Assembly (NCBI RefSeq): GCF_020859565.1
Contig: NZ_JAJHUO010000001.1
Location: 229,014 to 293,013, forward strand
From: Saccharothrix luteola
Lineage (GTDB): Bacteria > Actinomycetota > Actinomycetes > Mycobacteriales > Pseudonocardiaceae
Reading direction: 5' to 3'
Length of the DNA stretch: 64,000 nucleotides
Both the position numbers and the translations under genes were made by a program. Shown piece after piece: positions 16,169 through 31,485 of the stretch (positions are counted from its first letter, which is position 1; every line of letters starts with the position of its first letter). The notes under the pieces are model-generated. The model was not told where the DNA came from, did not search any database, and saw only the letters and a list, made by a program, of their open reading frames with translations.

Positions 16169-16567
16169 GTGACTGTCGTCTTGCTCAAGATCGGCGAACT
16201 CGCCGCCCGAGCCCAGGTCAGCCCGCGCACCGTCGACTACTACACCAGCCTCGGCCTGCTCACGCCGGCCAAGCGCACCGCGAGCAACTACCGCCTCTAC
16301 GACCCCGCCGACGTCGAGCGCATCCACCTCGTACAACGTCTCGAGGTCCAGGGTGTTCCCCTGGAGGAGATCGCCACCGCGCTGCAGAACCAGCACGCGG
16401 ACGTCGGCGCGATCCTCGACCGCATCGACGAAGACCTGCGCACCCTCCAAGCAGCGGCGGAGGCAGCCTCGCCGGAAGTCCACGGCCTATTGGCCGCGGT
16501 AGCCACCCGCGTCCACTCCCTCATCACCGTCGCCCTCCAGATCCCGCCCGACCTGCCTCTCCCCTGA
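16169..16567 (+). CDS. MerR-family transcriptional regulator
   Basis: A 132-residue regulator. Residues 4-72 are the MerR winged helix (KIGELAARAQVSPRTVDYYTSLGLL, with NYRLYDPADVERI in the wing). A dimerisation helix follows (about 80-115). No cysteine cluster for metal sensing is present, so this is not a classical mercury/copper sensor. Start GTG 16169 was chosen for its strong Shine-Dalgarno GGAGGTGA at 16153-16160. It is divergent from the CNNM pair and may control it. Confidence 0.85.
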   Translation: MTVVLLKIGELAARAQVSPRTVDYYTSLGLLTPAKRTASNYRLYDPADVERIHLVQRLEVQGVPLEEIATALQNQHADVGAILDRIDEDLRTLQAAAEAASPEVHGLLAAVATRVHSLITVALQIPPDLPLP

Positions 16568-16600
16568 CTCGAACCGACCAGGCCGCGCTCAACGCGGGTG

Positions 16601-17353
16601 CTACCGGGCCGCGTCGGTGCGCAGCGTCAGGATCCGCACCGCCCGGTCGCCGGTGTGCGGGTCGCGGCCGTGCCAGCAGCGGTAGTTGTCGACCGCCAGG
16701 ATGTCGCCTTCCTCCAGGCGGACGCGGGGCAGGTCCGCCTCCAGCGCGTGCACGGTGCGCTGGAACCGGTCGACCATCGCGGTGATGTGCTCGGCGTCGG
16801 GGTCGCGGTGCAGGGGCACGGCCCCGTCGGTGCGGCGGGCGATGCGCCGACCGGTCCGGGTGTACTCGACGTGGCGGCCCACGCGCGGGGCCGCGGGCAG
16901 TCCACGCAGCCCGGCCCACTCGCCGTAGAGGTCGACGTCCACGTCCGTGAGGAAGTCGACCAGCTCCTGATCGGGGCACGTGTCGAGGTAGCGGTAGGCG
17001 TCCAGGAGGAACGAGTCGCCGCCGGTGGGCGCGGGGCGGACGCACTGGACGAGCACGGCGTCCTCGTCGGGGTCGCGCCGCCGGGACGGCACCCCGCCGA
17101 TGTCGACCACCTGGTCGAAGCTGTCGGCGTGCAGGTGCACCGGACCGCCCTCGCGCGACGCCCGTTCGCGAATCGGGAACAACTGCCGCAGGTGCTGCCC
17201 GTACAGGTGCGCGGCGGCCACCACCAGAGCGTCCGGGGTGACCGATAGGCCGGTGAGGATCACCGAGCCTGTCCCGGCGAGCGCATCGCGGGCCTTGTCG
17301 GCGTCGTCGGCGTCCACGCGGGCGGGCACGACACCGAGTTCCCGACCGTTCAC
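16601..17353 (-). CDS. Fe(II)/2-oxoglutarate dioxygenase, TauD/clavaminate-synthase-like
   Basis: A 250-residue cytoplasmic oxygenase. Iron ligands are the HxD pair His75-Asp77 (HLHADSF) and distal His228 (CWHGRDPH), with the 2-oxoglutarate-binding arginine at 237 or 240 (DRAVRIL). Relatives in secondary-metabolite clusters hydroxylate amino acids such as Asp or Asn. GTG 17353 was chosen because GGAG lies 7-8 nt upstream and the domain begins there. It follows the first MFS gene on the same strand after 228 bp. A 23-bp motif upstream (17513-17535) is shared with the MFS promoter, so the two are probably co-regulated. A role in tailoring the metallophore suggested by the neighbours is inference. 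Confidence 0.82.
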   Translation of the reverse strand: MNGRELGVVPARVDADDADKARDALAGTGSVILTGLSVTPDALVVAAAHLYGQHLRQLFPIRERASREGGPVHLHADSFDQVVDIGGVPSRRRDPDEDAVLVQCVRPAPTGGDSFLLDAYRYLDTCPDQELVDFLTDVDVDLYGEWAGLRGLPAAPRVGRHVEYTRTGRRIARRTDGAVPLHRDPDAEHITAMVDRFQRTVHALEADLPRVRLEEGDILAVDNYRCWHGRDPHTGDRAVRILTLRTDAAR

Positions 17354-17512
17354 CGGCCGGCTCCGGCAGTGGCGGGACCCCACGCGCCGGGCACCAGCAC
17401 CGCGGCGGCCGGGGCCGTGAAGCACACGGCCGCGCAGGCGCCCGGCGACGACGTGGTCACCTGGAACTCCCCCCGTATCCGATCCGGTTGTCGACCGCGC
17501 AATTACAACACG

Positions 17513-17535
17513 ATGGCAACTGCAAGTGCGATGCA
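17513..17535. promoter_or_regulatory. Shared 23-bp regulatory motif, copy 1
   Basis: The sequence ATGGCAACTGCAA followed by six bases and TGCA is found here, 160 bp upstream of the dioxygenase start, and again at 18897-18919 upstream of the MFS gene. The TGCA-N7-TGCA core is a two-fold symmetric element. It is a candidate operator or promoter element for an unknown regulator. Confidence 0.55.
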
Positions 17536-17581
17536 CCAGAGGCCGGGCTCGCTCCCCACCAAGGTGGTGCCGAACGAACGG

Positions 17582-18844
17582 TCATCGACGGGCCGCGGTG
17601 GGGCGCCGGGCGAAGTCCCGGGCGCTGGGGACGAGGGCGGCTGCGGCCGGGGCGAGGAAGCAGAGGGCCGCGCACACGCCGAGCACGGTGGTCACGCCGA
17701 ACGCGTCGATGGCAGGCGCGATGAGCGCGAGCCCGATCGGAGCGAGGCCGTACGACAGCAGGAAGTCCAAAGAGGACACACGGGCCAGCTTGTCCGGTTC
17801 GACCTCGCGCTGGGTGGCGGTGAACCACGGGACGTTGAACAACTCGATGCCCAGACCCGCGATCACGTACGCGGCCACGATGACCACCCAGTGCACCGGC
17901 AACAGCAGTGCGAGCGGCGCGAAGCCGTAACAAGCCAGTGCGGTGAGCGCGGCCCAGCCCTGGGCGCGCGGCCGCCAACGGGTGACCAGCAGCGCGCCGA
18001 GCAGCCCACCCACGGTGTAGGCGGTCACCGATGCGGCGAGCACCACCTCCGTGTCGTAGCGGTCGCGGCTGATGAGTGGCAGGGCGACGCTGGTTGCGGA
18101 GTAGCCGGTGGCGATCACCGCGGTGAGCGCGGCCAGCCCGGCCAGGAACCAGGGATGCCGCCGCGCCTCACGCACCCCCTCGGCGAACTCGGCCAGGAAC
18201 CGAACCCGGGCACCGCGGGCGTTCGGGCCGGTGGTCGCCGCCGGCCGCCCCTTCGGCGGAACCAGTGCGGCGCACAACCAGACGACGCCGGTACCCACGA
18301 GCAGCGCACGGGTGTCCAGCAGGGTCGCGAGGAGGGCGGTCAGGCCGGGCGCGGTCAGCGTGGTGATGCGCACGGCCAGCGCCAACGCCGCGTTGGCCGC
18401 CTGCCGCCGCTCGGCGTCGACGACGTCCGCGACCAGCGCCTGGAACGCCGGCCGGCAGGCGCCCTGCCCGACACCCACCACGACCGCCGCGACCGCCATC
18501 AGCGGCACCGACCAGCCGAGCCCCAGCGCGATCACCGGCGCGCCCGCCGCCGCCGCGAGTCCCGCCCACAGCACCACCCCACGACGGGAGTACCGGTCCG
18601 CCAGCACCCCGGCGACCGGCAGGGCAACCAGGAATCCGGCCGTTCGCGCGGCCAGCACGACGCCGAGCCCCGCCGCGCTCAACTCCCGCTCCAGCACGCC
18701 CAACCCGAGCACGAAGGGAAGCGCCCAGGTAGCCAGGCCCGATGCCGTCATCCCCGTCCACAGCCGCACGAAGTCCGGCTCACGCAGGATCGACGGCGAC
18801 CGACGGGTCTCCCCTGCCTCCATCGACATCGACGACGTAGCCAC
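17582..18844 (-). CDS. MFS transporter, EntS-like (MFS_3), first paralogue
   Basis: A 420-residue, roughly 12-helix major facilitator. The loop 2-3 motif is present as GVLADRYSRRGVVLWAG, and the segment GIELFNVPWFTATQREV is characteristic of the MFS_3 group that includes siderophore exporters such as EntS. GTG 18844 was chosen because AGGGGG lies 8-12 nt upstream. It is clearly paralogous to the MFS protein at 20137-21387 (GIEAFNIPWFSAIQREV). Both flank the ATP-grasp gene. Export of a locally made small molecule is the likely role. Confidence 0.85.
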   Translation of the reverse strand: MATSSMSMEAGETRRSPSILREPDFVRLWTGMTASGLATWALPFVLGLGVLERELSAAGLGVVLAARTAGFLVALPVAGVLADRYSRRGVVLWAGLAAAAGAPVIALGLGWSVPLMAVAAVVVGVGQGACRPAFQALVADVVDAERRQAANAALALAVRITTLTAPGLTALLATLLDTRALLVGTGVVWLCAALVPPKGRPAATTGPNARGARVRFLAEFAEGVREARRHPWFLAGLAALTAVIATGYSATSVALPLISRDRYDTEVVLAASVTAYTVGGLLGALLVTRWRPRAQGWAALTALACYGFAPLALLLPVHWVVIVAAYVIAGLGIELFNVPWFTATQREVEPDKLARVSSLDFLLSYGLAPIGLALIAPAIDAFGVTTVLGVCAALCFLAPAAAALVPSARDFARRPTAARR

Positions 18845-18896
18845 CCGGCAACCCCCTGTATCGATTCTGACGGGCGCATCCACTTTTCGCCACGTC

Positions 18897-18919
18897 ATGG
18901 CAACTGCAAACGGTGTGCA
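18897..18919. promoter_or_regulatory. Shared 23-bp regulatory motif, copy 2
   Basis: This is a second copy of ATGGCAACTGCAA-N6-TGCA, 53 bp upstream of the MFS start. Here the element forms a near-perfect palindrome, CTGCANACNGTNTGCAG (18904-18920). Confidence 0.55.
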
Positions 18920-19126
18920 GCTACGGTACTTGCAATGGTTACGGTTACCAATAGCAGGTCGATCATCGGGGTCGACACCCGGGCGACCCTTCACCGACGA
19001 CCGCGCTCACCGAACCTCCACCGATCCCCCACCGGCCGCGACCTGCGGAGTGCCGAAGCGCACGCCGGGCCTGCGACGGACAAGTGCCCCATTCGACGGT
19101 GGCGACACTCACACGGATATGTTAGT
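18920..19126. other. Remainder of the divergent intergenic region (18845-19196)
   Basis: The 352-bp space between the first MFS gene and the ATP-grasp gene holds two regulatory sites, listed separately. Nothing resembling a gene was seen in the rest. Confidence 0.5.
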
Positions 19127-19139
19127 AATGAAAATCGTT
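19127..19139 (-). promoter_or_regulatory. Zur-type box 1
   Basis: AACGATTTTCATT on the minus strand (AATGAAAATCGTT on the plus strand), 57 bp upstream of the ATP-grasp start. It matches AAYGATTDTCRTT, shared with 24978-24990, 28244-28256 and 29470-29482, and resembles actinobacterial Zur boxes. Confidence 0.7.
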
Positions 19140-19196
19140 TGCACTCTTGCCTCTGCCGACCGGCCACCCGACCCCACTACCCGGCGAGGAGTTCCC

Positions 19197-20129
19197 ATGA
19201 CCGAGACCCCGTTGATCGTCTTGCTCGGCAACGACGATGACGACAGCGACCACCGCATCGTGTTCTCCGAGATCGAACGCTTGGGCGGGCGCCCCTTACG
19301 GGTGCACCCCGACGAGCTGGTGATCGAGGTGACCCCGGCGTCCACCCGGTTCTTCGTCGGCGGTGAGGAGTTGGCGATCGACCTCATGATGGGCTGGGTG
19401 TACGAGGATTACCTGATCCTGGGCATGAACCAGCTGGAAACCGCCCGGCTCGCCGGGGTACCCGTGGTGAACTCGGCGATGACGCTGATGCGCGGCCAGT
19501 CGAAGTACCTGAACTCGGCGCTGCTCAACGGCGCCAAGGTGCCTCACCTGCCGGTGCTGTGGGGTCGTGACGAGAACACGCTGGCCTCGTGGACCAACGA
19601 GCGCGGCTACCCGCTGGTGACCAAGCCGCTGATGCTCTCCTGCGGCCGGGGCCTGCAACTGCTGGAGGACGAGGCGGCAGTGCGTGCCCACGTGCGCGAG
19701 CTGGACCCCGGGCCGGACACCTACTACGTCCAGCCCTACGTTCCGGCGCGGCACCAGGACATCCGCGTGCTGTGCGTGAACTACAAGGCGGTGGCCGCGA
19801 TCGAGCGGACCGCGCCGGACGACTCCTGGATCAGCACCGCCGACGGCTTCACCCGACGTCGGCTCGAACTCACCCCGGACATCGTGGAGATCGGCGAGCG
19901 CGCCGCCGAGACGATGGACGCGCTCTGGGCCGGCGTGGACGTCGCGCGCAACGAGGAGACCGGAGAACTCGTCGTCTACGAGGTCAACACCTGTCCCACC
20001 TGCGCCGAGGCCTTGCACGCCCTGGGCGGGGACCCGGTCCCGCTGACCCAGCTCGCCTCCTTCCTGGTCGCGGCGGGCCGCGACTTCGAGGACGCGCGCC
20101 GCAACTGGCGTCCGTCGGCCACCTACTGA
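19197..20129 (+). CDS. ATP-grasp ligase (RimK-like)
   Basis: A 310-residue ATP-grasp enzyme, which forms an amide bond by way of an acyl-phosphate. Visible blocks are the ATP-binding lysine region (YPLVTKPLMLSCGRGLQLL, about 140-160), the hinge segment YYVQPYVPARHQDIRVLCVN, and the metal-binding ELVVYEVNTCPTC near 265 (Glu and Asn ligands). GGCGAGGAG precedes the ATG at 19197. A Zur-type box sits upstream, and the stop is 7 bp before the second MFS gene, so the two form an operon. It could ligate an amino acid into the proposed metallophore; no precursor peptide gene for a RiPP was found next to it. Confidence 0.82.
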   Translation: MTETPLIVLLGNDDDDSDHRIVFSEIERLGGRPLRVHPDELVIEVTPASTRFFVGGEELAIDLMMGWVYEDYLILGMNQLETARLAGVPVVNSAMTLMRGQSKYLNSALLNGAKVPHLPVLWGRDENTLASWTNERGYPLVTKPLMLSCGRGLQLLEDEAAVRAHVRELDPGPDTYYVQPYVPARHQDIRVLCVNYKAVAAIERTAPDDSWISTADGFTRRRLELTPDIVEIGERAAETMDALWAGVDVARNEETGELVVYEVNTCPTCAEALHALGGDPVPLTQLASFLVAAGRDFEDARRNWRPSATY

Positions 20130-20136
20130 GCCGGCG

Positions 20137-21387
20137 ATGCTGGGAATCCTGCGCAACTCCCGTTTCCGGCTCGCCTGGCTGAGCTCCACCGCCTCCGGTG
20201 CGGCGACCTCCGTCATGCCGGTCGCGCTCACCCTCTACCTGCTCGACACCCGGGGCGGCATCACCGTGCTGGGGTTGGTCCTCGGCTGTCGCACCGCGGG
20301 CTTCGTGCTCGGCGCGGTCCTCAGCGGGGTGTTCACCGACGGCTACGCCCGTCGCACGGTCCTGACGCTGGCCAGCGCCGTCCGCGGCGTGGCGATCCTG
20401 GCCGTGGTGCCCGCGTTCACCGTGTCGGTGTTGGCGATCTGCGTCGCGATCCTGATGGCCGGGGTGGGTGAGGGCCTGTTCCGCGGCGCTTACCAGGCGC
20501 TGATCGGCGAGGTCGTGCCCGATGACGACCTGCAACGGGCCAACGCGCTGTCCACGCTGAGCAGCAGGCTGCTGCTGATCGCCGGCCCGACGGCGGCGAC
20601 CCTGCTGTACGTGGCGATCGGCGGCGCGGCGACGCTGGTGGCCACGGGGGTGCTGTGGATGGGCTCGGCCGGGCTGGCGCTGCGCCTGCCGCGCAGCGAA
20701 CCGCCGCCGTCCGACGACGCCCGCCGCCGCCCGTTCGCCGACTTCGCCGAGGTGCTGCGCGAGGCCGGTCGGCACCGCTGGTTCGTGGCCGGTCTGGGCG
20801 CGCTGGTGATCTGGTTGGCGCTGGGGTGGGCCGTGCAGCAGCTCACCCTGCCCCTGGTGAGCCGCACCGAGTTGGGCGGTGACACGTTCATCGGGATCGC
20901 GCTGGGAACCTACTCGGCCGGGGCGGTCGCCGCCGCCGTCGTGATGGGCCGCTGGACGCCGCGTCGGCCGGGCTTGGTCGCCTTCGTCGGGTTGAGCCTC
21001 TACGGCCTGGTTCCGCTCGCGCTCACCGTGCCGGGCGTGTCGCCGTACCTCGGGGCGGCGCTGGTGCTGGTCGCGTACTTCCTGGGCGGCGCGGGCATCG
21101 AGGCGTTCAACATCCCTTGGTTCAGCGCCATCCAGCGTGAGGTGCCGCCGGAGCGGATGGGGCGGCTGTTCTCCCTCGACTTCATGGTCTCGCACGGCGT
21201 GGCGCCGCTCGGGTTGATCGTGCTGCCGTACGCGTTGACCTCCGTCGGGCAGACCCCGGTGCTGGTCGTGTGCGGGGTGTTGACCGTGGTTTCGGCGCTC
21301 GGCGCGCTTGCCGTGCCGGGCACGCGGAAGTTCGCCGACCCCCGGTCGGCGCGTCGTCCCACCCGGGAGGCGGAGGTCGACGGGTGA
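20137..21387 (+). CDS. MFS transporter, EntS-like, second paralogue
   Basis: A 416-residue major facilitator with about 12 helices, paralogous to the protein encoded at 17582-18844. Signatures are GVFTDGYARRTVLTL in the 2-3 loop and GIEAFNIPWFSAIQREVPPERMGRLFSLDFM. It follows the ATP-grasp gene by 7 bp and shares its Zur-type promoter, pointing to export of the ligase product. Directly after its stop lies the long G/C homopolymer (21400-21465). Confidence 0.86.
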   Translation: MLGILRNSRFRLAWLSSTASGAATSVMPVALTLYLLDTRGGITVLGLVLGCRTAGFVLGAVLSGVFTDGYARRTVLTLASAVRGVAILAVVPAFTVSVLAICVAILMAGVGEGLFRGAYQALIGEVVPDDDLQRANALSTLSSRLLLIAGPTAATLLYVAIGGAATLVATGVLWMGSAGLALRLPRSEPPPSDDARRRPFADFAEVLREAGRHRWFVAGLGALVIWLALGWAVQQLTLPLVSRTELGGDTFIGIALGTYSAGAVAAAVVMGRWTPRRPGLVAFVGLSLYGLVPLALTVPGVSPYLGAALVLVAYFLGGAGIEAFNIPWFSAIQREVPPERMGRLFSLDFMVSHGVAPLGLIVLPYALTSVGQTPVLVVCGVLTVVSALGALAVPGTRKFADPRSARRPTREAEVDG

Positions 21388-21399
21388 TCCCGCGGGCGT

Positions 21400-21465
21400 G
21401 GGGGGGGGGGGGGGGGGGGCGGGGGGGGGGGGCGCCGCCCCCCCCCCCCCCCCCCCCCCCCCCCC
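21400..21465. repeat. Long G then C homopolymer tract
   Basis: Twenty G (21400-21419), one C and twelve G (21421-21432) are followed by CGCCG and twenty-eight C (21438-21465). The arms can pair to a giant hairpin. It lies between convergent stop codons, where a terminator is expected. A small real hairpin CCGCAC/GTGCGG follows at 21464-21480. Such a tract is rare in genomes and may be an assembly artefact. Confidence 0.85.
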
Positions 21466-21470
21466 GCACC

Positions 21471-21977
21471 TCAAGTGCGGTCGGGCGGGTTGCGACTCGA
21501 ACGGCCGAGCCCTTCCGGTTGTGCCACCTGATCACCCCCGCACTGGAGGCACAGAACGGTCAGGTCGATCGACAACCGGATGTCCGAGAAGCCGTGGACA
21601 CCTGCGGTTCGAACGGCCCACCGCACCACGGCCGAGGCGTTCACCCGGACGGTGCGACCACACTTCACACAGGTGAGGTGGTGGTCGTCCTCGTCGTCGT
21701 ACCTCAGGTGGTACAGGTGGGTCCCGCTCCGGTTCTGCGTCGTGCAGGTGACTCCTGCTCGGGTCAGCGCGTCCAAGTGCCGGTAGACGGTGGCCAGACC
21801 GATCCGCTCGCCCGCCATCCGCGCGCGTTCGTGGATCTCCTGCGCCGTCACGGGCCCCGACGAGGCGTGCAGCACGCGCAACACCGCTCGACGTTGCGAC
21901 GTCCTCCGCACTCCACCGACGCTGTCATCGGCCTCCCCGCCCACTCCCGCTCCCCACACTCGATCGACCGCGTGCAC
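21471..21977 (-). CDS. zur: Fur-family zinc regulator (Zur type)
   Basis: Up to 168 residues. The Fur winged helix spans about 24-90 (TSQRRAVLRVLHASSGPVT, then LATVYRHLDALTRAG). The C-terminal domain has the structural zinc site Cys103/Cys106 (LTCVKCG) and Cys143/Cys146 (LCLQCGG), plus His90, His99, His100 and His128 as sensor-site candidates. The sequence HHLTCVKCGRTVRV followed by WAV-GVHGF is closest to actinobacterial Zur. GTG at 21944 is an alternative start; the first residues look non-conserved. It is last in a minus-strand operon after the PLP enzyme (38-bp gap), whose promoter has a Zur-type box, so autoregulation is likely. Zur rather than Fur is inferred from sequence feel and from the neighbourhood. 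Confidence 0.82.
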   Translation of the reverse strand: MHAVDRVWGAGVGGEADDSVGGVRRTSQRRAVLRVLHASSGPVTAQEIHERARMAGERIGLATVYRHLDALTRAGVTCTTQNRSGTHLYHLRYDDEDDHHLTCVKCGRTVRVNASAVVRWAVRTAGVHGFSDIRLSIDLTVLCLQCGGDQVAQPEGLGRSSRNPPDRT

Positions 21978-22015
21978 GTGCGAGCCGCTGCGCCGGCCGG
22001 CCTGCCCGCCCCCGG

Positions 22016-23134
22016 TCAGGTCGAGGACGAGAAGCGGGGAAGGTAGGCGGAGGAACGGACCTCCTCGGCCAACACGCCGCTCCGGGGCTGCGGCGCGGAG
22101 CTGCCGCGGGACGGCGACAGGGCGGCGGCGACCGCGGCAGGAGGCGCGGGAGCCCGGTTCCAGTCCATCCGCGACCAGGGAAGCGCCATGTCGTCGAGGG
22201 CGTCGATCTCGCGCGGACGCAGTTCGTCCGCGGCAGGCGCCTGGCGGTGTCTCGCGAAGGCGCTGTCGACGTAGCGGTGGCCGGTGTCGGGTGCGATGAA
22301 CACGATGTGCCCGTCAGAGGTCGATCGGTCTTCCCAACGCGCCGCTAGGTACGCCGCGCCCGTCGACAAGCCGGCGAAGACGGCGTGCTCCCGGAGCAGT
22401 GCCACGCTGCCCGCCAGAGCCGCGTCGAAGCCCACCCAGTGCACGACGTCGTAGAGGTCGTGCACCACGTTGGCGAACGGGATCGAGCTGCCGATGCCCG
22501 CGATGATGATCTCCGGGTCGCGCACGTGCTCGCTGCCGAACGTGATGCTGTCGAAGGGCTGGACACCGATGAGGCGGGTGTCGGGCCGGCTCTCGCGCAG
22601 GTAGCGCGCGAGCGCGCCGGTCGAGGACCCGGTGCCGACCGCCCCCACGAGCGTGATCGGCTCGCCGCCCAGCTCGCGGCGCAGCATCTCGGCGATCGGC
22701 TGGTAGCCGAGGTAGTGGATGTCGTCGTGGTACTGCTGCATCCAGTAGTGCCCCGGGTTGTCCCGCAGGATCTCGCGCACCCGCGAAACCCTGCGGTTCT
22801 GGTCCAGTTTGAGGTTGACCGTCGGGGGCATCGGTTCCACCGTCGCACCCAGGATCTCCAGTTGGATGCGCAAGGTCTTGTCCACCGTGGTGGAGGCCAC
22901 GATGTGGCACTTCAGGCCGTACCGGTGGCACGCCAGCGCCAGGGCGTGCGCGTAGATGCCGCTGGAGCTGTCGACGAGGGTGTCGCCGGGGCCGATCGTG
23001 CCGTCGTCCAACAGGTGGCGTACCGCCGCCAGCGCCGAGGCGACCTTCATGGTCTCGAAGCGCAGGCAAGCGGTGCGGTCGTCCAGGCGCACGAGTGCCG
23101 GGCGGCCGAGTGCGTCGCTGATGTGGTGGTCCAC
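22016..23134 (-). CDS. SbnA/CysK-like PLP-dependent synthase
   Basis: A 372-residue fold-type II PLP enzyme of the cysteine synthase group. The PLP lysine is probably Lys30 (RFETMKVASAL). The SSSGIYAHALALA segment corresponds to the substrate-binding loop, and GAVGTGSSTGALARYLRE is the phosphate-binding glycine loop. SbnA-type relatives join O-phosphoserine to an amino acid to make diaminopropionate or aminopolycarboxylate building blocks of metallophores. The C-terminal 60 residues (APAPPAAVAAALSPSRG onward) are an unusual, probably disordered tail. It starts 16 bp after the DUF364 stop, in a four-gene operon (methyltransferase, DUF364, this enzyme, Zur). The exact substrates are unknown. 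Confidence 0.83.
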   Translation of the reverse strand: MDHHISDALGRPALVRLDDRTACLRFETMKVASALAAVRHLLDDGTIGPGDTLVDSSSGIYAHALALACHRYGLKCHIVASTTVDKTLRIQLEILGATVEPMPPTVNLKLDQNRRVSRVREILRDNPGHYWMQQYHDDIHYLGYQPIAEMLRRELGGEPITLVGAVGTGSSTGALARYLRESRPDTRLIGVQPFDSITFGSEHVRDPEIIIAGIGSSIPFANVVHDLYDVVHWVGFDAALAGSVALLREHAVFAGLSTGAAYLAARWEDRSTSDGHIVFIAPDTGHRYVDSAFARHRQAPAADELRPREIDALDDMALPWSRMDWNRAPAPPAAVAAALSPSRGSSAPQPRSGVLAEEVRSSAYLPRFSSST

Positions 23135-23150
23135 TTCGTCCTCGGTCCGG

Positions 23151-23957: not shown

Positions 23958-24673
23958 CACGCCGCCTTCCGGGTCAGGCCGAACAGGAAGGTGATCACGC
24001 CGTCGTCCCAGTCGTGCCGGTAGCGAACGCGCGCGACCAGGCCGCGCTCCACGGCGTGACCGACCACCGTGCGCAGGTCCGCCGTGTTGGACACGATGAT
24101 GAGCACCTCGCCGTCCTCCGCGAGCAGGTCGCGGTCGACCAGCTCGTCGAAGAAGCGGGTGACCAGCGACGCGCCGACGCACACGTTGCGGATCACGTCG
24201 GGGTCGTCGCTCACGGTCTGGCTGACCGCGGGCGGGTTGAACGTGACGACGTCGAACCGGGTGCCGTCCGGCACGGCGTCGAACAAGTCCGACACCAGGG
24301 GGTGGAAGTCGGTCCCCGGACGCGGTCCGACGTGCTCGGTGTAGTGCTGCGCGGTCACGGCGACGCTCTCGGGGTGGATGTCGAGCGCGTAGATCTCCCG
24401 CGCCCCTCTCAGTCCCGCCGCGACGGCTTCGACACCGGCGCCGGCGCCCATCGCGGCGTAGACCCGGCCCTTGGTCTCGATCTCGCCGTCCAGCAGCCAC
24501 TTGTGCAGCATGCGACTGGTCTCACCGGGGTGGAACACCCCGGGCGGCAAGCGGAATTCCAGGCCGTTCCAGCTGTAGTCGCGCTCGGTGTGCAAGTCGC
24601 GCTTGGGTTTGTTGATGGCGATGATGTGCTCGGCGGGAAGGATCGGTGGCAGTTCCTCGACGACGACGTCCAT
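23957..24673 (-). CDS. SAM-dependent methyltransferase
   Basis: A 238-residue class I methyltransferase. The SAM-binding loop is AAMGAGAGVEAVAAG (about 73-87), followed by the acidic residue of strand 2 (YALDIHPESV). The catalytic NPPA motif is at 146-149 (VVTFNPPAVSQ), typical of N- or C-methylases acting on planar or amino groups. A very good Shine-Dalgarno, AGGAGG, precedes the ATG. It is the first recognised gene of a minus-strand operon that also holds DUF364, the SbnA-like enzyme and zur. A Zur-type box lies 305 bp upstream with a small open frame in between. Confidence 0.8.
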   Translation of the reverse strand: MDVVVEELPPILPAEHIIAINKPKRDLHTERDYSWNGLEFRLPPGVFHPGETSRMLHKWLLDGEIETKGRVYAAMGAGAGVEAVAAGLRGAREIYALDIHPESVAVTAQHYTEHVGPRPGTDFHPLVSDLFDAVPDGTRFDVVTFNPPAVSQTVSDDPDVIRNVCVGASLVTRFFDELVDRDLLAEDGEVLIIVSNTADLRTVVGHAVERGLVARVRYRHDWDDGVITFLFGLTRKAA

Positions 24674-24791
24674 CCTCGTTCCTCCTGTCGTGGCGGCGCA
24701 CGGCCGTTCGCGACGTGCCGGTGCGGCGCGTCACGGTGTATGGGTGCGTAGTGGGCCGGTCCGGCCGACGCGATCCGCTCGCCAGAGCGCG

Positions 24792-24941
24792 TCAGTGCGG
24801 AGCCGTCGCGCCGAGCTGCCCGTCATGGACGACGGTTGGTCGCAGAAACGCCTGGCGAACGTGAGCGGTCGTTGCAGCACAACGGTTTCCGCACGGGATC
24901 CCGCGGACGAGCGACGTGGTCGTCAGACCAGGACGTGACAT
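24792..24941 (-). CDS. Candidate 49-residue peptide behind a Zur-type box
   Basis: A short frame (MSRPGLTTTSLVRGIPCGNR at its start) begins 36 bp downstream of the Zur-type box at 24978-24990. GGAGG lies 5-6 nt before its ATG. It ends 118 bp before the methyltransferase. The peptide has two cysteines and several arginines and matches no family I know. It could be a leader peptide, a small real product, or chance. It fills part of an otherwise gene-free 511-bp stretch (24674-25184). Confidence 0.35.
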   Translation of the reverse strand: MSRPGLTTTSLVRGIPCGNRCAATTAHVRQAFLRPTVVHDGQLGATAPH

Positions 24942-24977
24942 CTGCCCTCCACGGCTAGACCGGCCACCCTTACCTTG

Positions 24978-24990
24978 AACGATAATCATT
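24978..24990 (-). promoter_or_regulatory. Zur-type box 2
   Basis: AATGATTATCGTT on the minus strand, upstream of the small frame and the methyltransferase-DUF364-PLP synthase-zur operon. It fits AAYGATTDTCRTT. Confidence 0.75.
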
Positions 24991-25184
24991 ACCAATGCAA
25001 GGCTCAGGGAGCGGAAAACCCCTGAGGTGGGCATGCGGCACAACAAGAACCCGCCACGGCATCGGTGTTCCGAAGCCTGTCCTTCTCCCGGCCCTGGACC
25101 AGTGCCAACGGCTTCTGGTATCGCGTTGCGCGCGGAGGTCGCCCGTCGGCCGGACCTCGCCGGGACGAGCCGTTCCGCGCCCGC

Positions 25185-25961
25185 CTATCGCTCAGCAGGT
25201 GTCCGCAGCCCGGGGCTGAACACCAGTTGGACGCAGTGCTCCTCGTGGAGCACCCGCACGCCCACCCCGTAGACCGGTTCGAGGACCTCCGGCGCCAGCA
25301 CCTCGACCGGCGGGCCCGCCGAGACGACGTGACCACCGTTCAGCAGGACCACCTGGTCGCAGTAGCGCGCGGCCAGGTTGAGGTCGTGCAGGACGACGAC
25401 CGTGGTGATGCCGATCGTCCGCACCAGTCCCATGACCTCGTGCTGGTACCGGATGTCCAGGTGGTTGGTGGGCTCGTCCAGCAGCAGGTGACCGGCCTGC
25501 TGGGCGATGGCCCGCGCGATGAGCGTGCGCTGCCGCTCACCACCGGACAGCGCGGTGAACGAGCGGTCGGCCAGCCCGCGCATCCCGACCCGGCTCAACG
25601 CCGCGGCGGCGAACTGGTGGTCCTCGACGGTGTAGGACTGCAGGGCCGACCGGTGCGGCGCACGGCCCAGGAGCACCATGTCGGCCACCGTGACCGGCAT
25701 GTCGGACGGGGTTTCCTGGGCGACCACGGCGATCCGCCGGGCCCGTTCCCGCCCACGCAGCGCCGCGACCGGTTCGTCGTCGACCAGGACGACGCCACCC
25801 CGCGGCACCAGCGCCGAGTAGAGGACGCGCAGCAGGGTCGTCTTGCCGCTCCCGTTGGGCCCGATGAGCCCGACGACGTCACCGGCACCCGCCTTCAGCG
25901 TGACCCCGGCGAGCACCGGGGTGTCGTCGTAGGCGAACGTCACGTCGGATGCGCTGATCAC
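25185..25961 (-). CDS. FecE/BtuD-type ABC transporter ATPase
   Basis: A 258-residue ATPase for a metal-chelate importer. Walker A is GPNGSGKTT (34-42), the ABC signature is LSGGERQRT, Walker B is LLLDEPTNHLD, and the switch histidine is in VVLHDLNLAARYCD. These are typical of the FecE/FhuC/BtuD group. GTG 25961 was chosen, with GGAAGG a few bases upstream; the longer frame runs into non-coding sequence. It is the last gene of the importer operon (binding protein, permease, ATPase), 49 bp after the permease stop. Confidence 0.92.
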   Translation of the reverse strand: MISASDVTFAYDDTPVLAGVTLKAGAGDVVGLIGPNGSGKTTLLRVLYSALVPRGGVVLVDDEPVAALRGRERARRIAVVAQETPSDMPVTVADMVLLGRAPHRSALQSYTVEDHQFAAAALSRVGMRGLADRSFTALSGGERQRTLIARAIAQQAGHLLLDEPTNHLDIRYQHEVMGLVRTIGITTVVVLHDLNLAARYCDQVVLLNGGHVVSAGPPVEVLAPEVLEPVYGVGVRVLHEEHCVQLVFSPGLRTPAER

Positions 25962-26010
25962 GTGGCACCTTCCAGGGTGTTCCCGGGCACGGGGTCCGTT
26001 ACCGTCCGGT

Positions 26011-27096
26011 CTAGGGCAGGCGGCGCACCAGGATCGCCAGGAACGGCGCACCGACGACCGCGGTGACGATGCCCAGCGGCAACTCACGCGGGGCGAACGC
26101 CAGCCTGGCGACGACGTCCGCCCACACCAGGAACGACGCGCCGATCAGGGCGGCGACGGGCAGCAGCCGGCGGTGCACGCCGCCCACGCACAACCGGGCG
26201 ACGTGCGGCACGATCAGGCCGACGAACCCGATCCCGCCGGACACCGCCACCGCGGCGGCGACGCAGACCGCCACGACCACGAGCGCCTGTGCCCGCACCC
26301 TGGCGGGCGGGCTGCCGAGCGCGTGAGCGGTGTCGTCGCCGAAGTTCAGCGCGTCGAGCCGCCGCGACCACATCACCAGCACCACGAAGGCGAGCAGCGT
26401 CAACGCGCCGGCGATCAGCACACCGGACCACTGCGCCCTGGTCAGCGAGCCGAGCAGCCAGAACAGCACGGCTCGCGCGCCTTCCGGGGTGTCGGAGGCG
26501 AAGATCAGGAAGCTGGTGGCGGCGTTGAGGACGTACCCGACCGCGACCCCGGCCAGCAGCAGCCGAACCGCGGTGATCCGGCCGCTGCCCCGCGCCAACG
26601 CGAAGACCACCGCGGTGGCCGCGACCGCACCGATGAACGCGCTGCCGGCCAACGAGCCGGCGCCGAGGGCGGCGCCCACGCCGAACAGCAGGGTCAGGGC
26701 CGCCCCCGTGGACGCGCCCGCGCTGATCCCGAGCAGGTACGGCTCGGCCAACACGTTGCGCACCAGCGCTTGGAGGGCCACACCGGAGATCGCCAGCGCC
26801 GCCCCCACCACGACGGCGAGCAGCACGCGGGGAGCGCGGACCAGCCACACGACGTTGTCCTCGGCCGGGGTCCACGTCACGTCCGGGACGCCGAAGAGGT
26901 GGTGACCGAGGATTCCCGCCACGGTGCCAGGGGGTATCGACACCGGTCCGAGCCCGATCGCAACGGGCACGCTCGTCAGCAGGACGAGGGACAGACCGGT
27001 CACCCACAGGATCGTCCGCTTGGAGCGGGACCTGCGATCCAGGTCGTCCGGGGTGGTGCCGTCCCCGTCCCGGACGGTCCCGGTGACCGTTGCCAT
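26011..27096 (-). CDS. FecCD-family metal-chelate permease
   Basis: A 361-residue membrane protein with about ten helices. The conserved FecCD segments are RAPRVLLAVVVGAALAISGVALQALVRNVLAEPYLLGISAGAS and, near the C-terminus, GGIGFVGLIVPHVARLCVG (only short parts quoted as one domain signature). Such permeases import metal-siderophore or cobalamin complexes as homodimers. A 30-residue charged N-terminal extension precedes the first helix. It lies between the binding-protein and ATPase genes on the same strand. Confidence 0.92.
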   Translation of the reverse strand: MATVTGTVRDGDGTTPDDLDRRSRSKRTILWVTGLSLVLLTSVPVAIGLGPVSIPPGTVAGILGHHLFGVPDVTWTPAEDNVVWLVRAPRVLLAVVVGAALAISGVALQALVRNVLAEPYLLGISAGASTGAALTLLFGVGAALGAGSLAGSAFIGAVAATAVVFALARGSGRITAVRLLLAGVAVGYVLNAATSFLIFASDTPEGARAVLFWLLGSLTRAQWSGVLIAGALTLLAFVVLVMWSRRLDALNFGDDTAHALGSPPARVRAQALVVVAVCVAAAVAVSGGIGFVGLIVPHVARLCVGGVHRRLLPVAALIGASFLVWADVVARLAFAPRELPLGIVTAVVGAPFLAILVRRLP

Positions 27097-27179
27097 CCTG
27101 CCGCCTTTCGGTGGTCTCGTGGTTCGACTGCCCGGTCGGAGGACCTGGGTCGAGGACCGGTCGGCCGGGGCCGAGCGCC

Positions 27180-28172
27180 TCAGCCGCCGAGCTGCTCGGC
27201 CAACCGCTCGATGCCGTCCACGGCCAGAGTGCCGTGACCCGAGTAGTAGAAGTCCAGCACCAGGACCCGGCCTTCGGCGATGGCCGGGATCGTCGCCAAC
27301 TCGGAACGACCGGTCAGCGCCTCGCGCACCGACTTCTCGTCGATGTCACCGGGCTCGTACAAGGCGATCAAGCGCTTGGGCGCGGACGACACGAGGCTTT
27401 CGGTGTTCGGCTCGAAGTAGCGCTCGTCGGTCCCCTCGAAGACGTTCGACAGCCCGACGCCCTCCAACTGCTGGTGAACCATGCTGCGACGACCATAGGC
27501 GCCCAGTGGGCTGTCCGAGGTGGCGACGAAGACCGCGGCGGTCTCGCGGTTCGCGGGCGGCGTCTGTCGTGCCTTCTCCCGGACGGCTTCGACCCGGTCG
27601 CGCAGCCCGGCGGCGGCGCGAGTGGCCTGCTCGCCGGTGCCGAGCACCTTGCCCAGGGTCTCGACGTCGGAGAACAGCTCCCCCAGCGGGTCGGTGACAT
27701 CCGACTGACCCGCGCCGAACCCGCCGCAGTAGCCGCTGATCACCAGGGTCGGGATCCCGGCCTCGGCCAGGTCCTCGGGACCGAACTCGTTGAGGCCGTA
27801 GGTGACGACCAGGTCGGGGCTCGCGGCGATGATCGCCTCGCGTGAGATGTCCTTCGAGCTCTTGATGGGAGCCTGCGTCCGCTGCTTGAGCGCTTCCTCC
27901 GCATCGCCCAAGGGCTCGCCCGCGAGGGGGGAGAAAGTGCCGATCCGATCGGTGCCGCCCGCGGCGTGCACCAGGGTGCCCGCTTCACCGCCGATGACGT
28001 ACAACTTCTCCGGCCGCTTCTCGATGGTCACGTCCCGACCGCAGTTCCGCACCGTCATCGGGTAACCCTCGGCGGCGGTCCGCGTCCCCTGATCCGCACT
28101 ACCGCAAGCAGAGGCCGTCAGAGCGACCACGGACGCCAGCACCAGCCCGGTGCGCCGCATGGGGTATCGCAT
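27180..28172 (-). CDS. Metallophore-binding lipoprotein (FecB/FhuD-like)
   Basis: A 330-residue solute-binding protein. The signal peptide ends in a lipobox (TASACGS, Cys23), so the mature protein is anchored outside the membrane. Two lobes typical of helical-backbone (cluster A-II) proteins are visible: PEKLYVIGGEAGTLVHAAGG with IIAASPDLVVTYG in the first, and a second lobe from about 200 on. It is the first gene of the importer operon. A Zur-type box lies 72 bp upstream (28244-28256). Together with the neighbouring biosynthetic genes, the ligand is likely a zinc-loaded metallophore; this is inference. Confidence 0.9.
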   Translation of the reverse strand: MRYPMRRTGLVLASVVALTASACGSADQGTRTAAEGYPMTVRNCGRDVTIEKRPEKLYVIGGEAGTLVHAAGGTDRIGTFSPLAGEPLGDAEEALKQRTQAPIKSSKDISREAIIAASPDLVVTYGLNEFGPEDLAEAGIPTLVISGYCGGFGAGQSDVTDPLGELFSDVETLGKVLGTGEQATRAAAGLRDRVEAVREKARQTPPANRETAAVFVATSDSPLGAYGRRSMVHQQLEGVGLSNVFEGTDERYFEPNTESLVSSAPKRLIALYEPGDIDEKSVREALTGRSELATIPAIAEGRVLVLDFYYSGHGTLAVDGIERLAEQLGG

Positions 28173-28243
28173 CAGCGAGAGATCCTTTCCAAAGGAGCGT
28201 GACGACGTCTCGATGGCCGTCTGTGCGCACCAGCGACCGCGAC

Positions 28244-28256
28244 AACGATTATCGTT
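28244..28256. promoter_or_regulatory. Zur-type box 3
   Basis: AACGATTATCGTT is a perfect 6-bp inverted repeat about one central base. It lies upstream of the binding-protein operon. Confidence 0.8.
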
Positions 28257-28580
28257 TTAGCACAGGTACACCTGCGACCGCCACGTCCAATCGAGGCGCA
28301 ACCCCCGCACATCGCGGCCCGGTGCACGACGATCAGGCCGTGACGCCGCGCACCGGCAGGACCGGACACGCGATGTTGTTGACCCGACCAGGTCGTATCG
28401 CTAGGGTCGGGCCCGGCGTGGCCCGCGCCCAACCTCCATCGACTGTCCCCAGCGCAGTCCTGGCCGGAGGCAAAGGGACTTCTCGTCTCGGGTCGCTGCC
28501 GTAGTCCGTCCGCCTCGGTACCCCGCTGCCCTGCGGCCTTCCGCCTGGGGCACTTCCGGTCGACTCCGCCAGGAGAAGTC
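28257..28580. other. Gene-free stretch between importer promoter and nitrilase remnant
   Basis: About 320 bp with no recognisable gene. The only signal is the AGGAGAAG ribosome binding site of the ruined nitrilase at its end. Confidence 0.45.
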
Positions 28581-29319
28581 ATGCCGGACTCCGAGGAAAC
28601 CGAACCCGTGCGACTGGCCGTGGCGCAGACCGCCATGCGCAGCGACCCCCGCGACAGCGCCGAATTCCACGTCAGCGGACGGGAAATACGTCAGGCGATG
28701 AGGGAGGCCCGCGAGGCGGGCGCAACGCTGGTGCACTTCCCCGAGAGCGCGATCTGCGTTCCCGACAAGCACATCCTGTCCGGGGCGACCCGGCCGAGGC
28801 CGGGCCGGCGAACTGGGAGTTGTTCGCCTGGGGCGCACTGCGGCAGGAGTTGACGGCGATCGCCGAACTGGCAGGGGAACCGGGGCTCTGGACCGTTCTC
28901 GGCTCATCCCATCGCCTGACAGCGCCCAACCGCCCGCACAACAGCCGGTACGTGATCTCCGACCGCGGGAGGCTCGTCACGCGGTACGACGAGCGCATGT
29001 TGTCGAACACCAAGATCAGTTACATGTACACGCCCTGATCGACCCCGAAGACGTTCACCGTCGGCGGCCTGCGGTTCGGGCTCCTGCTCGGGATGGAGGT
29101 CCACTTCGCGGAGCTGCTCCTCGAGCAGAACGGCTCGACGTCGACTGCGTCCCGTTCTCGACGCCCGGGCCGGGCGAGCCGCCCGATGACGGAACCTTCG
29201 CCGCTCAAGCGCGGGCGCACGCGGCCGCCAACCGCTACCGGGTCAGCTATGCAGGGCCTGCGTGGGGCACGCACTTCGTCCAGGACGACCGCAGAAGCGA
29301 CGATCTTCACGCGTTCTAG
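28581..29319 (+). pseudogene. Carbon-nitrogen hydrolase (nitrilase family) remnant
   Basis: A broken nitrilase-family amidohydrolase. The first frame (RLAVAQTAMRSDPRDSAEF, then EAREAGATLVHFPESAI, with the catalytic Glu in FPES) is lost near 28795. A second frame carries NWELFAWGALRQELTAIAEL onward to a TGA at 29036-29038. Shortly after, TVGGLRFGLLLGMEVHFAELL and finally DVDCVPFSTPGPGEPPDDG and VSYAGPAWGTHF appear in other frames, ending with TAG at 29317-29319. At least three frameshifts are needed to join the pieces, so the gene is inactive. The catalytic cysteine region is degraded. Confidence 0.83.
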
Positions 29320-29466
29320 GGTCCTCGCGTTCTCTCACAACAACATTCGACTGTTCCGAGGTCGACCTGGCAGGGCATGGACCGCGGCCACCGCCTCGGC
29401 CACGTGTCGTGCGGCGCGAGACCGGCCACCAGTAGGACCCGGGGTCCCACGTGGGCTAGTCTAACG

Positions 29467-29485
29467 GAAACGATTGTCGTTTCCT
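29467..29485. promoter_or_regulatory. Zur-type box 4
   Basis: GGAAACGATTGTCGTTTCC is a perfect 8-bp inverted repeat around TTG; its core AACGATTGTCGTT (29470-29482) fits the shared box. It lies 122 bp upstream of the CobW-type GTPase. Confidence 0.8.
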
Positions 29486-29607
29486 ACTGGAGGTAGCGTG
29501 CGGTCGCGGGGAGATCATCCTGCCGACATACCCCGCCAAGGACGTTGACCAGCGGGTGCTCCACGCCGTGACCGCGAGGCGCACCGCCATCACCCGGAAA
29601 GAACCCC

Positions 29608-30768
29608 ATGACCACCGATTCGCGCGTTCCCGTCACGGTGCTGTCCGGCTTCCTCGGCGCGGGCAAGACCACCCTCCTCAACCACGTGCTGGCCAACCGC
29701 GAGGGGCGCCGCGTGGCGGTGGTGGTCAACGACATGAGCGAGGTCAACATCGACGCCGCCCTCGTCTCCGGGCGCGGCGGCGAACGGCTGGTGGAGCTGA
29801 CCAACGGTTGCATCTGCTGCACGCTGCGCGAAGACCTCCTGGAGAGCGTAGGCGCGCTGGCCAGGGAAGGCCGCTTCGGCACCATCCTGATCGAGTCCAC
29901 CGGCATCTCCGAGCCGATGCCGGTGGCGGCGACGTTCGAGTGGACGTTCGAGGACGGCACGAGCCTGTCCGACCACGCCCGCCTCGACACCATGGTCACC
30001 GTGGTCGACGCATCGACGTTCCTGGTGGAGCTCGAACGCGGCGACCGGCTCGACGAGCGCGGGATCGAGGCCGCCGAGGGTGACGAGCGCGGCATCTCCG
30101 ACCTGCTGGTCGACCAGGTCGAGTTCGCCGACGTGCTGGTGCTCAACAAGACCGACCTCGCCACACCGGACCGGCTCGCCGTGGTCGAAGGCTTGCTGCG
30201 CAAGCTCAACCCGAACGCCCGCCTGATCCGATCCCACCGCGGCGTGGTCGACCTGTCCGAGGTGCTCGACACCGGCCGGTACGACCCCGTCACCGCCGCC
30301 ACGTCACCGGGCTGGGCCGAGGAGCTGGCGGGCTCCCACACCCCGGAGACCGAGGAGTACGGCATCCGCTCGGTCACCTACCGCGCCGACCGCCCCTTCC
30401 ACCCCTCACGGCTGGCCGCCGCCCTGGAAGACTGGCACGCCGTCGTGCGCAGCAAGGGCTTCTGCCACATCGCCAGCCGCCCGCACACCCTCGCCGTCTG
30501 GTCGCAGGCCGGGCCGAACATGACCATCGAACCGGGTGAACTGCTCGACGGCCACACCGCCCGCCAGGAACTGGTGTTCATCGGCGTCGACCTCGACCTC
30601 GATGAACCCCGCCGCAGGCTCGACCCCGCCCTGCTGACCGACACCGAACTGGCGGCAGGCCCCGCCGCGTGGCGGCAGTTCGACGACCCGTTGCCCGCAT
30701 GGGACGACCTGGAGGCCCACGACCACGCGCACGTCGCCCCACTCCCGAGGCATCTGCTGGAGCTTTGA
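29608..30768 (+). CDS. CobW/G3E-family GTPase, zinc chaperone (ZigA/YciC type)
   Basis: A 386-residue metallochaperone GTPase. Walker A is GFLGAGKTT (14-22), the metal-binding CxCC is Cys68-Ile-Cys70-Cys71 (NGCICC), the switch ESTG precedes SEPMPV, and NKTD is the G4 motif. The C-terminal CobW_C domain (about 270-370) ends in a His-rich tail ([13 protein letters not shown]). Zur-controlled members deliver zinc to essential enzymes under starvation. The Zur-type palindrome 122 bp upstream and the adjacent His-rich protein support this role. A terminator follows directly. Confidence 0.9.
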
Positions 30769-30773
30769 GCGCG

Positions 30774-30808
30774 GTGCGGGCTCGGGCGAGCGTCGTCCGA
30801 GCCCGCAC
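30774..30808 (+). terminator. Terminator after the CobW GTPase
   Basis: A perfect 12-bp stem (30774-30785 with 30797-30808) with an 11-nt loop begins 5 nt after the stop codon. Confidence 0.75.
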
Positions 30809-30886
30809 GGGACGTCCGGGACGTTCACCAGCGCGTCCGGCCCCGTGGCGGGCGCCATGACCGCCGAGGCGCGGTCCGAAGTGAGA

Positions 30887-31183
30887 TCAATGCTCGTCGT
30901 AGTGCTCGCCGTGCACGGCGTGGCGGTGGCCGTCGTGCACGTAGTCCACGTGGTCGCCGTGCGGGACCGCCACGTGCCCGCAGCCTTCGCCGTGCGCGTG
31001 GCCGTGGTCGTCGTGGGCGCCGTGGTCGCCGGGCTCGCACTCGTCGAAGTGCCCGTCGTGCACCCGGTGGAGGTGGCCGTCGTGCACGTAGTCCACGTGG
31101 TCGCCGTGCGGGACCGCCACGTGCCCACAGCCTTCGCGGTGGGCGTGGGTGTGGTCGGCGTGTTCGAGGTGTGCGGTGGTCAT
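30887..31183 (-). CDS. Small histidine-rich repeat protein, probable zinc binder
   Basis: A 98-residue cytoplasmic protein with 27 histidines and three cysteines. It consists of two tandem repeats (17-37 and 66-86) with the core EGCGHVAVPHGDHVDYVH, spaced by His/Asp-rich sequence. No signal peptide is present. Such composition fits metal storage or buffering, most likely zinc. GAAAGG lies 11-12 nt before the ATG. It converges on the CobW zinc-chaperone gene. No Zur-type box was found upstream, so it may respond to excess rather than shortage. The function is inferred from composition. Confidence 0.75.
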   Translation of the reverse strand: MTTAHLEHADHTHAHREGCGHVAVPHGDHVDYVHDGHLHRVHDGHFDECEPGDHGAHDDHGHAHGEGCGHVAVPHGDHVDYVHDGHRHAVHGEHYDEH

Positions 31184-31485
31184 GAGCGACCCGCCTTTCG
31201 ATGTCCTGGACTCCATCTCACCCGGATGTCCCAACACTGGTGACCGAGCGCAACAACACATTAGGTCATGCGCATGTATGCCGCATGTCCGACTTCACCC
31301 GACAGGCTTAACGACACTCGACACTCGACACTCGACCTTGAGATGACAGTTGCGCCGTGCAGGACGCCACGCTCGCCCTGGAACCGCGCATCGCGGCCGA
31401 CCCCGACCGCCGGCGGGCCGTTCGAGACATGCCGGTCAGTCCTGTTTCAGATGCGGCGTAGCCAGATGTCGACGGCGCTGTCCGG
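31184..31485. promoter_or_regulatory. Upstream region of the His-rich gene
   Basis: This 302-bp gene-free space contains a perfect 10-bp palindrome CATGCGCATG (31267-31276) followed by GTATGCCGCATG, in unusually AT-richer sequence. It is a candidate regulatory site, but its regulator is unknown. Confidence 0.4.

Follow-up and report, generated by a model that had tools for sequence, protein, structure and literature searches.

The stretch analysed in this work, hereafter the window, comprises 64,000 nucleotides (nt) of the 10.3-Mb genome of the soil actinobacterium Saccharothrix luteola (positions 229014-293013 of contig C1; assembly contamination 8.84%). It contains a locus in which the genes of a pyridoxal phosphate (PLP) enzyme and of a protein of the DUF364 family lie among genes for tailoring enzymes, two exporters of the major facilitator superfamily (MFS), an ATP-binding cassette (ABC) importer of FecBCDE type and zinc-related proteins (Table 1). 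The original prediction had read this locus as a probable Zur-controlled zinc metallophore system of unfamiliar composition. All the genes that it named are present at their given positions with open frames and, judged from sequence, its overall interpretation largely holds. From the gene content, boxes, co-conservation and folds computed here, we consider it probable (about three chances in four) that this is a Zur-repressed zinc metallophore locus with a biosynthetic logic of its own.

Table 1. Genes and boxes of the locus, in window positions; box mismatches refer to the pattern AAYGATWWTCRTTW
Feature	Position	Strand	Remarks
TauD-family 2-oxoglutarate-Fe(II) dioxygenase	16601-17353	-	Pfam TauD 52.5 bits (cut-off 27); accessory, probable hydroxylase
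MFS exporter a	17582-18823	-	Pfam MFS_1 119 bits; core
Zur box	19126-19139		58 nt before ATP-grasp gene; 0 mismatches on one strand
RimK/LysX-like ATP-grasp ligase	19197-20129	+	Pfam RimK 44 bits (cut-off 21); rare accessory
MFS exporter b	20137-21387	+	MFS_1/MFS_3; travels with ATP-grasp
Fur-family protein (Zur paralogue, altered regulatory metal site)	21471-21977	-	Pfam FUR 75.5 bits
SbnA/CysK-fold PLP fold-type II enzyme	22016-23134	-	Pfam PALP 131 bits; biosynthesis core
DUF364 protein	23151-23957	-	Pfam DUF364 (PF04016) 48.1 bits (cut-off 23); biosynthesis core
HemK/PrmC-like S-adenosylmethionine methyltransferase	23957-24673	-	Pfam MTS 25.8 bits (cut-off 23); accessory
Zur box	24978-24991		305 nt upstream of methyltransferase start (methyltransferase-DUF364-PLP operon); 0 mismatches
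ABC ATPase of importer	25185-25961	-	Pfam ABC_tran 102 bits
FecCD permease	26011-27096	-	Pfam FecCD 299 bits
FecB-type binding lipoprotein	27180-28172	-	Pfam Peripla_BP_2 67.7 bits (cut-off 27.5)
Zur box	28244-28257		72 nt upstream of FecB (importer operon); 0 mismatches
Zur box	29469-29482		before CobW/ZigA gene; 1 mismatch
COG0523 CobW/ZigA-like zinc GTPase	29608-30768	+	NCBIfam ZigA 478.6 bits (cut-off 600); Pfam cobW 190 bits
His-rich repeat protein	30887-31183	-	two 132-nt copies, 87% alike

The structure model of the DUF364 protein (pLDDT, the predicted local distance difference test, 92.5) found its best Protein Data Bank (PDB) matches in 3l5o and 3npg, both DUF364 proteins, with which it shares the family and the two-domain fold at 14-18% identity in structural alignments; it thus has both a score above the Pfam cut-off and the fold of the solved members. 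Matches beyond the DUF364 entries (aminotransferases and racemases, with template modelling scores of at most 0.40 among the matches listed) were not used. The structure paper of 2010 proposed that the active site lies between the domains and that these proteins take part in metal-chelator synthesis, and in its available text no reaction is known for 3l5o or 3npg (PMC2954201; this and the other papers cited here were available in part). The PLP enzyme retains Lys30, which binds PLP as a Schiff base and is invariant in 25 of 25 aligned rows and in the alignment with the SbnA of this genome. Its model matches CysK and SbnA, and since model quality is limited (mean pLDDT 78.5, poor at 197-203 and 208-214, with an unordered tail) these matches were used for the fold only. 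With the SbnA equivalog TIGR03945 the enzyme scored 136.9 bits, below the cut-off of 349.95.

Both MFS proteins had been described as MFS_3 paralogues, an assignment that stood for exporter b (67 bits, over the cut-off) and narrowly failed for exporter a (26.8 against 27). The importer ATPase matched the F420-0, BtuD and FecE types of NCBIfam, all under their cut-offs. The CobW/ZigA-like GTPase is an accessory of general zinc homeostasis, and the His-rich repeat protein, for which the Pfam scan gave no match, is probably a metal buffer.

The evidence that a defined part of this gene set belongs together comes from its relatives. In a sample of 200 genomes of the family, its own included, 82 encode DUF364 relatives, which fall into a group A of about 63-87% identity and a group B of about 38-50% (apart from a few partial matches), and some genomes hold both. 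A PLP gene of this type accompanies DUF364 in all 23 group A and all 17 group B family loci read (40 in total). A collection of named genomes holds at least 232 stretches encoding a DUF364 relative; the best 80 of these, which overlap in part with the family loci and are not an independent sample, come from 15 genera and include 9 loci of Lentzea. The closest named relative of the DUF364 gene, with 87% identity, is found in Saccharothrix yanglingensis. The PLP and DUF364 genes lie on the same strand and within 2.2 kb of each other in all 77 named loci showing both, and in the three lacking PLP the sequence ends at most 0.9 kb from DUF364. Sixty of the 80 loci are full-length, that is, at least 20 kb, and span 15 genera. 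In these, counted by tblastn, PLP, DUF364 and FecE occur in 60, FecCD in 58, FecB of either type in 58 and exporter a in 56; PLP, DUF364, importer and exporter a occur together in 54 (14 genera), in agreement with the co-conservation expected of a metallophore locus. Because the FecE query can pick up any ABC ATPase, it is of little weight as a marker; the exporter, matched at 66-80% identity in 69 of the 80 loci, is a strong one. No genes accompany the PLP-DUF364 pair more constantly than those of the exporter and the binding-protein importer.

The remaining genes are less regular. GHMP kinase, absent from the window, was found in 47 of the 60 full-length loci, the methyltransferase in 23, TauD in 16 (adjoining the exporter gene in the related loci read) and the His-rich gene in 2, while the ATP-grasp, Fur, CobW and a neighbouring decarboxylase gene were found in none. 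The claim that all the listed genes form one pathway is therefore not supported; TauD, the methyltransferase, ATP-grasp, CobW and the His-rich protein count as accessories. Among the 23 group A family loci, CobW occurs in two, the His-rich gene in two and ATP-grasp in one; His-rich relatives adjoin the locus in L045 and L053, and one of the two among the 80 named loci belongs to the L045 genome. GHMP kinase genes often escaped a simple gene caller, which found them in 12 loci, compared with 63 of 80 for tblastn, and the tblastn counts were therefore used. A phylum-wide draw gave a match in 6 of 396 genomes, namely that of the window and five from a single genus, of which three had group B-like scores; the pair is common in some genera and was not seen in most genomes of this draw.

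Regulation by zinc is suggested by boxes shared within the genome. The 14-base pattern AAYGATWWTCRTTW was derived from the window boxes, and a scan of the genome with up to one mismatch gave 15 rows, equal to nine distinct sites, against none for the backwards pattern. Four of the nine lie in the window, so the predicted shared boxes are real; since the pattern was derived from them, they are no proof alone, and the independent part consists of the other five sites. One of these lies between divergent znu genes (ZnuA and an ABC-3 permease in one direction, an ABC ATPase in the opposite one) and one between the L28-L33-S14 and CobW-L31-L32 genes, each Pfam-confirmed. Another precedes a second DUF364 cluster on contig C36, another an O-methyltransferase gene followed by a second Fur paralogue on contig C6 (198000-210000, L097), and the last stands directly before an Opp-type binding protein gene at C4:58005 (L096). 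Zur targets in Streptomyces and Mycobacterium include znu and ribosomal paralogues (PMC6103462, PMC5472717), and because two of the five outside sites, in this same genome, are of these kinds, the element common to zinc uptake and zinc-free ribosomal paralogues is taken as a Zur box. The published Streptomyces motif, tGaNNatSatNNtCa (PMC5472717), offered an independent test, as the 80 named loci played no part in shaping it: with up to one mismatch it gave 62 matches in their 1.53 Mb against 1 for the reversed control, and 49 of the 62, spread over 43 loci, lie no more than 450 nt ahead of a gene belonging to the set.

Some observations from these scans stand apart. The box region on C6 is preceded by a FecB-like and two ABC-exporter-like proteins, all three judged by eye, and is perhaps another Zur-controlled metallophore locus; the system at C4:58005 is probably a Zur-controlled importer of peptide or metallophore type. 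ZnuA matches with identical scores at C14:6973 and C15:194877 hint at a duplicated stretch or at redundancy of the assembly. An exact 13-mer, ATGGCAACTGCAA, stands before TauD and exporter a (17513-17525 and 18897-18909), its sole exact copies in the genome. It was rejected as a second regulon box, with four genome copies at up to one mismatch (two of them exact) against seven for the backwards control, and none of ten related loci, from eight genomes, contains it at up to two mismatches.

The Fur-family protein encoded downstream of the PLP gene had been proposed as the regulator, a role that does not fit its sequence. Its nearest solved relatives are FurB/Zur of M. tuberculosis and Zur of S. 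coelicolor, and both CxxC pairs of the structural Cys4 site of canonical Zur are present. The regulatory-site ligands of S. coelicolor Zur include Cys79 and His84 (PMC6103462); in the corresponding stretch the local protein has no cysteine and its histidine run is cut to DDHH, features both retained in a canonical-looking Zur encoded on contig C56. The paralogue on C6 shows a similar ligand change. With its regulatory ligands lost and no relative in any of the 80 named loci, the local protein was rejected as zinc sensor and is best seen as a derived Zur paralogue.

The second DUF364 cluster of this genome, on C36, belongs to group B, whose setting comprises an ATP-grasp protein with an L-amino-acid-ligase C-terminal domain, DUF364, PLP, an enolase-superfamily racemase/epimerase, an MFS protein, a methyltransferase, an Opp importer and a GNAT protein. 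The C36 Opp binding protein has its best match in NikA and a weaker one in CntA. The best match of the C36 ATP-grasp protein (L037:8197-9453) is the ATP-grasp half of the fused ATP-grasp/argininosuccinate-lyase PRK02186 (191.8 bits, cut-off 625). At a loose threshold of up to three mismatches, a box stands 45-63 nt before the first gene, ATP-grasp, in nine of the ten group B loci having that gene; the published motif gave a match with one or two mismatches at about this place in all ten (the distance being measured in nine), and two-mismatch matches occur elsewhere in these loci too. No box was seen before the PLP-DUF364 pair in the other seven group B loci. The same pair is found with two different transport systems, which speaks for it as the source of the transported molecule.

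What the pair might make is indicated in part by the genes around it. SbnB releases diaminopropionate in the synthesis of staphyloferrin B. With the SbnB of this genome as query (TIGR03944, 341 against 326.9 bits), tblastn found no relative in the 23 group A, 17 group B or 80 named loci (120 in total, partly overlapping), nor in the window, a result that supports the predicted unfamiliar composition. Therefore, the route is not that of staphyloferrin B, nor that of the clusters of ethylenediamine-disuccinate (EDDS) type as described, and the adduct formed by the PLP enzyme may itself be the product or its core. A GHMP kinase gene lies between the DUF364 and PLP genes in 56 of the 77 loci showing both, a position that suggests a phosphorylated hydroxy-amino acid as substrate. 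The kinase is missing in 17 of the 77 (those of Lentzea, Saccharothrix and Actinokineospora, plus a few more), and its relatives elsewhere in this genome are distant (33% at best). A PduX-like reading of the kinase was abandoned, since it drew on a single motif and NCBIfam and PDB gave only weak mevalonate-kinase matches. The claimed absence of nonribosomal peptide synthetases (NRPS) stood for the window, where tblastn with one NRPS of the same genome found none; NRPS-independent siderophore (NIS) synthetases, also said to be lacking, were not searched by model. NRPS-like stretches near DUF364 are so few in the relatives (one of 23 group A and four of 80 named loci) that they form no part of the gene set.

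Several known metallophore systems resemble this one in parts. Staphyloferrin B biosynthesis shares with it the fold of the PLP enzyme and a building block that is likely serine-derived, and differs in its SbnA, which the PLP enzyme falls short of, and in SbnB. A true SbnA-SbnB pair, both over their NCBIfam cut-offs, was seen on C6 (240000-248302, L100) beside an NRPS of 2158 amino acids with three condensation and two adenylation stretches. Staphylopine and opine-like zincophores, the products of genes such as CntKLM, CntA-F and CntE, are likewise small and amino acid-derived, as the present ligand would be, and use an MFS exporter and an ABC importer; the C36 version comes nearest to them, with its racemase/epimerase and its Opp importer. 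Among the window proteins scanned against Pfam, none showed a family like nicotianamine synthase (NAS) or opine dehydrogenase. Coelibactin, from a Zur-controlled NRPS system of Streptomyces, shares actinobacterial Zur control, unlike the window in its NRPS. The biosynthetic core is common to none of the classes compared, the comparison with EDDS resting on one gene list. In the literature searched, which covered few subscription papers, neither a DUF364 metallophore cluster nor a Zur-controlled SbnA-like cluster without SbnB is described.

Several results weigh against a zinc metallophore reading. The boxes of the window deviate from the published motif by at least two mismatches, and its only one-mismatch matches (4650 and 56351) lie outside the locus, so that in this genome the link to Zur rests on the znu and ribosomal sites. 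Strict boxes before a gene of the set are lacking in 37 of the 80 named loci, and 13 of the 62 matches lie elsewhere. These loci are, moreover, the best-scoring of a longer list and mostly from Streptomyces (51 of 80). The SSGN loop reads SSGI in the window PLP enzyme, and with this asparagine lost its chemistry may differ from that of SbnA. The substrate of the GHMP kinase is a guess, its nearest named matches being weak, and in the few loci with NRPS-like stretches near DUF364 there may be a link to an NRPS. The FecB of the window is 24-30% identical to its relatives where found, and 67% in one, so this importer differs from most; the direction of MFS transport, finally, is not tellable from sequence.

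Of the explanations that compete with a single zinc metallophore locus, the one to be taken most seriously, although we hold it unlikely, is that two loosely linked systems lie side by side: a metallophore system of PLP, DUF364, methyltransferase and exporter a, and a separate unit of FecB, FecCD, ATP-grasp, exporter b and FecE that makes or imports another ligand. ATP-grasp occurs in four of the 200 family genomes, its own included, and in one of the other three (G099) the row FecB-FecCD-ATP-grasp-exporter b-FecE is isolated, about 2 Mb from the DUF364 gene of that genome; another locus (L108) carries two different Fec importers. Nevertheless, all four genomes have a group A DUF364, and in two of the other three ATP-grasp lies within about 5 kb of it on the same strand. 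In G065, seven genes follow on a single strand (methyltransferase, PLP, DUF364, FecB, FecCD, ATP-grasp and exporter b) with just 10-75 nt between matches, then 726 nt and FecE, with exporter a and TauD adjoining. This order recurs in G147, a genome of the same genus, where 796 nt separate FecB from FecCD and, as in G065, 726 nt separate exporter b from FecE; gaps of this size make separate transcripts possible. Exporter b adjoins ATP-grasp in all three genomes, and the locus in the window represents a rearrangement of this extended form.

It is less probable still that the product chelates iron, nickel or cobalt, or acts against competitors, and is under Zur control for other reasons. Importers of FecBCD type usually carry siderophores or cobalamin, and the nearest solved structure to the window FecB, 5cr9 (E 2.5e-30), is annotated as of Fe3+-hydroxamate type; for one aminopolycarboxylic cluster, control by the iron regulator DmdR1 has also been predicted (PMC10920908). 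However, a consensus of IdeR/DmdR type gave two matches in the 80 loci against one for the control, and a single match with six mismatches in window positions 15000-34000; iron control was rejected on this lack of enrichment. Zur boxes are present instead, matching the znu and ribosomal-paralogue sites and, as the published motif, enriched in relatives, in favour of the predicted zinc rather than iron. That the system belongs to the EDDS/EDHA aminopolycarboxylic class already known, its precursor step having diverged, appears improbable to much the same degree or slightly more so. Amycolatopsis japonicum makes [S,S]-EDDS, a zincophore under Zur control, with neither NRPS nor NIS enzymes (PMC4993170, PMC9252823), and such clusters contain a cysteine-synthase-type enzyme (PMC13206832), as here. 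The Rhodococcus cluster list in the same source, the one list compared, has an ornithine cyclodeaminase and a diaminopimelate decarboxylase (PMC13206832), whereas the SbnB-like cyclodeaminase expected of the class was found neither in the window nor in the 120 partly overlapping loci, and DUF364 and FecBCDE are present here; this gene-list comparison is incomplete. Finally, it seems very unlikely that no ligand is secreted, which would mean that the enzymes produce a zinc ligand or cofactor for use inside the cell and that the transporters have another purpose. Neither direction nor cargo of the MFS and ABC proteins is readable from sequence, but an exporter and a binding-protein importer are what most constantly accompanies the pair, and the distant version, of C36 type, has another binding-protein importer.

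For a zinc metallophore locus, a scheme can be proposed in which we infer the substrates, the order of steps, the product, zinc as the metal and the direction of transport. With zinc plentiful, zinc-loaded Zur, probably the C56 protein, would occupy the boxes and silence the operons. When zinc runs short, the PLP enzyme would couple an activated serine to another amino acid through the amine of the latter; this serine may be supplied by the GHMP kinase in most relatives, and here probably by general metabolism. The DUF364 enzyme would then condense or otherwise tailor the adduct to a small amino-polycarboxylate, the putative zinc ligand, without SbnB, NRPS or NIS synthetase, and the methyltransferase, dioxygenase and, in the rare form, ATP-grasp ligase may decorate it. 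The MFS proteins would export the ligand, FecBCDE would return its zinc complex, and the CobW/ZigA and His-rich proteins may distribute or hold the zinc. Going one step further, we lean slightly towards the idea that PLP and DUF364 are an undescribed metallophore-forming pair, joined to either FecBCDE or OppABCDF sets, so that one genome would hold two zincophore classes, and that forming or closing a metal-binding amino-acid adduct would be the first defined reaction of DUF364. The tailoring genes differ with the transporter: GHMP kinase, HemK-like methyltransferase and rarely RimK-like ligase with FecBCDE, and ATP-grasp, epimerase and GNAT with OppABCDF.

Other features of the neighbourhood deserve mention. 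Between the convergent genes of exporter b and Fur (21400-21465) lies a G/C hairpin, a G20-C-G12-CGCCG-C28 tract that is either an extreme terminator or an assembly artefact. Between FecB and CobW (28581-29330), broken multi-frame remains resemble, by eye, a nitrilase-family gene, and neither of the two open frames scanned matches Pfam. A large group II pyridoxal decarboxylase gene adjoins the locus (31486-33357; histidine-decarboxylase-like match of 201.5 bits, below the cut-off of 305); present in none of the 80 named loci, it was rejected as a pathway member.

If this reading is true, DUF364 would gain a function; the structure of this family was solved in 2010, and its role has so far only been guessed to lie in metal chelation (PMC2954201). 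Searches based on NRPS, NIS, NAS or SbnB would miss such loci, and biodegradable chelators of the EDDS kind have practical use. For the organisms themselves, the finding points to a zinc-scavenging chemistry across Streptomyces, Lentzea, Saccharothrix, Amycolatopsis and others.

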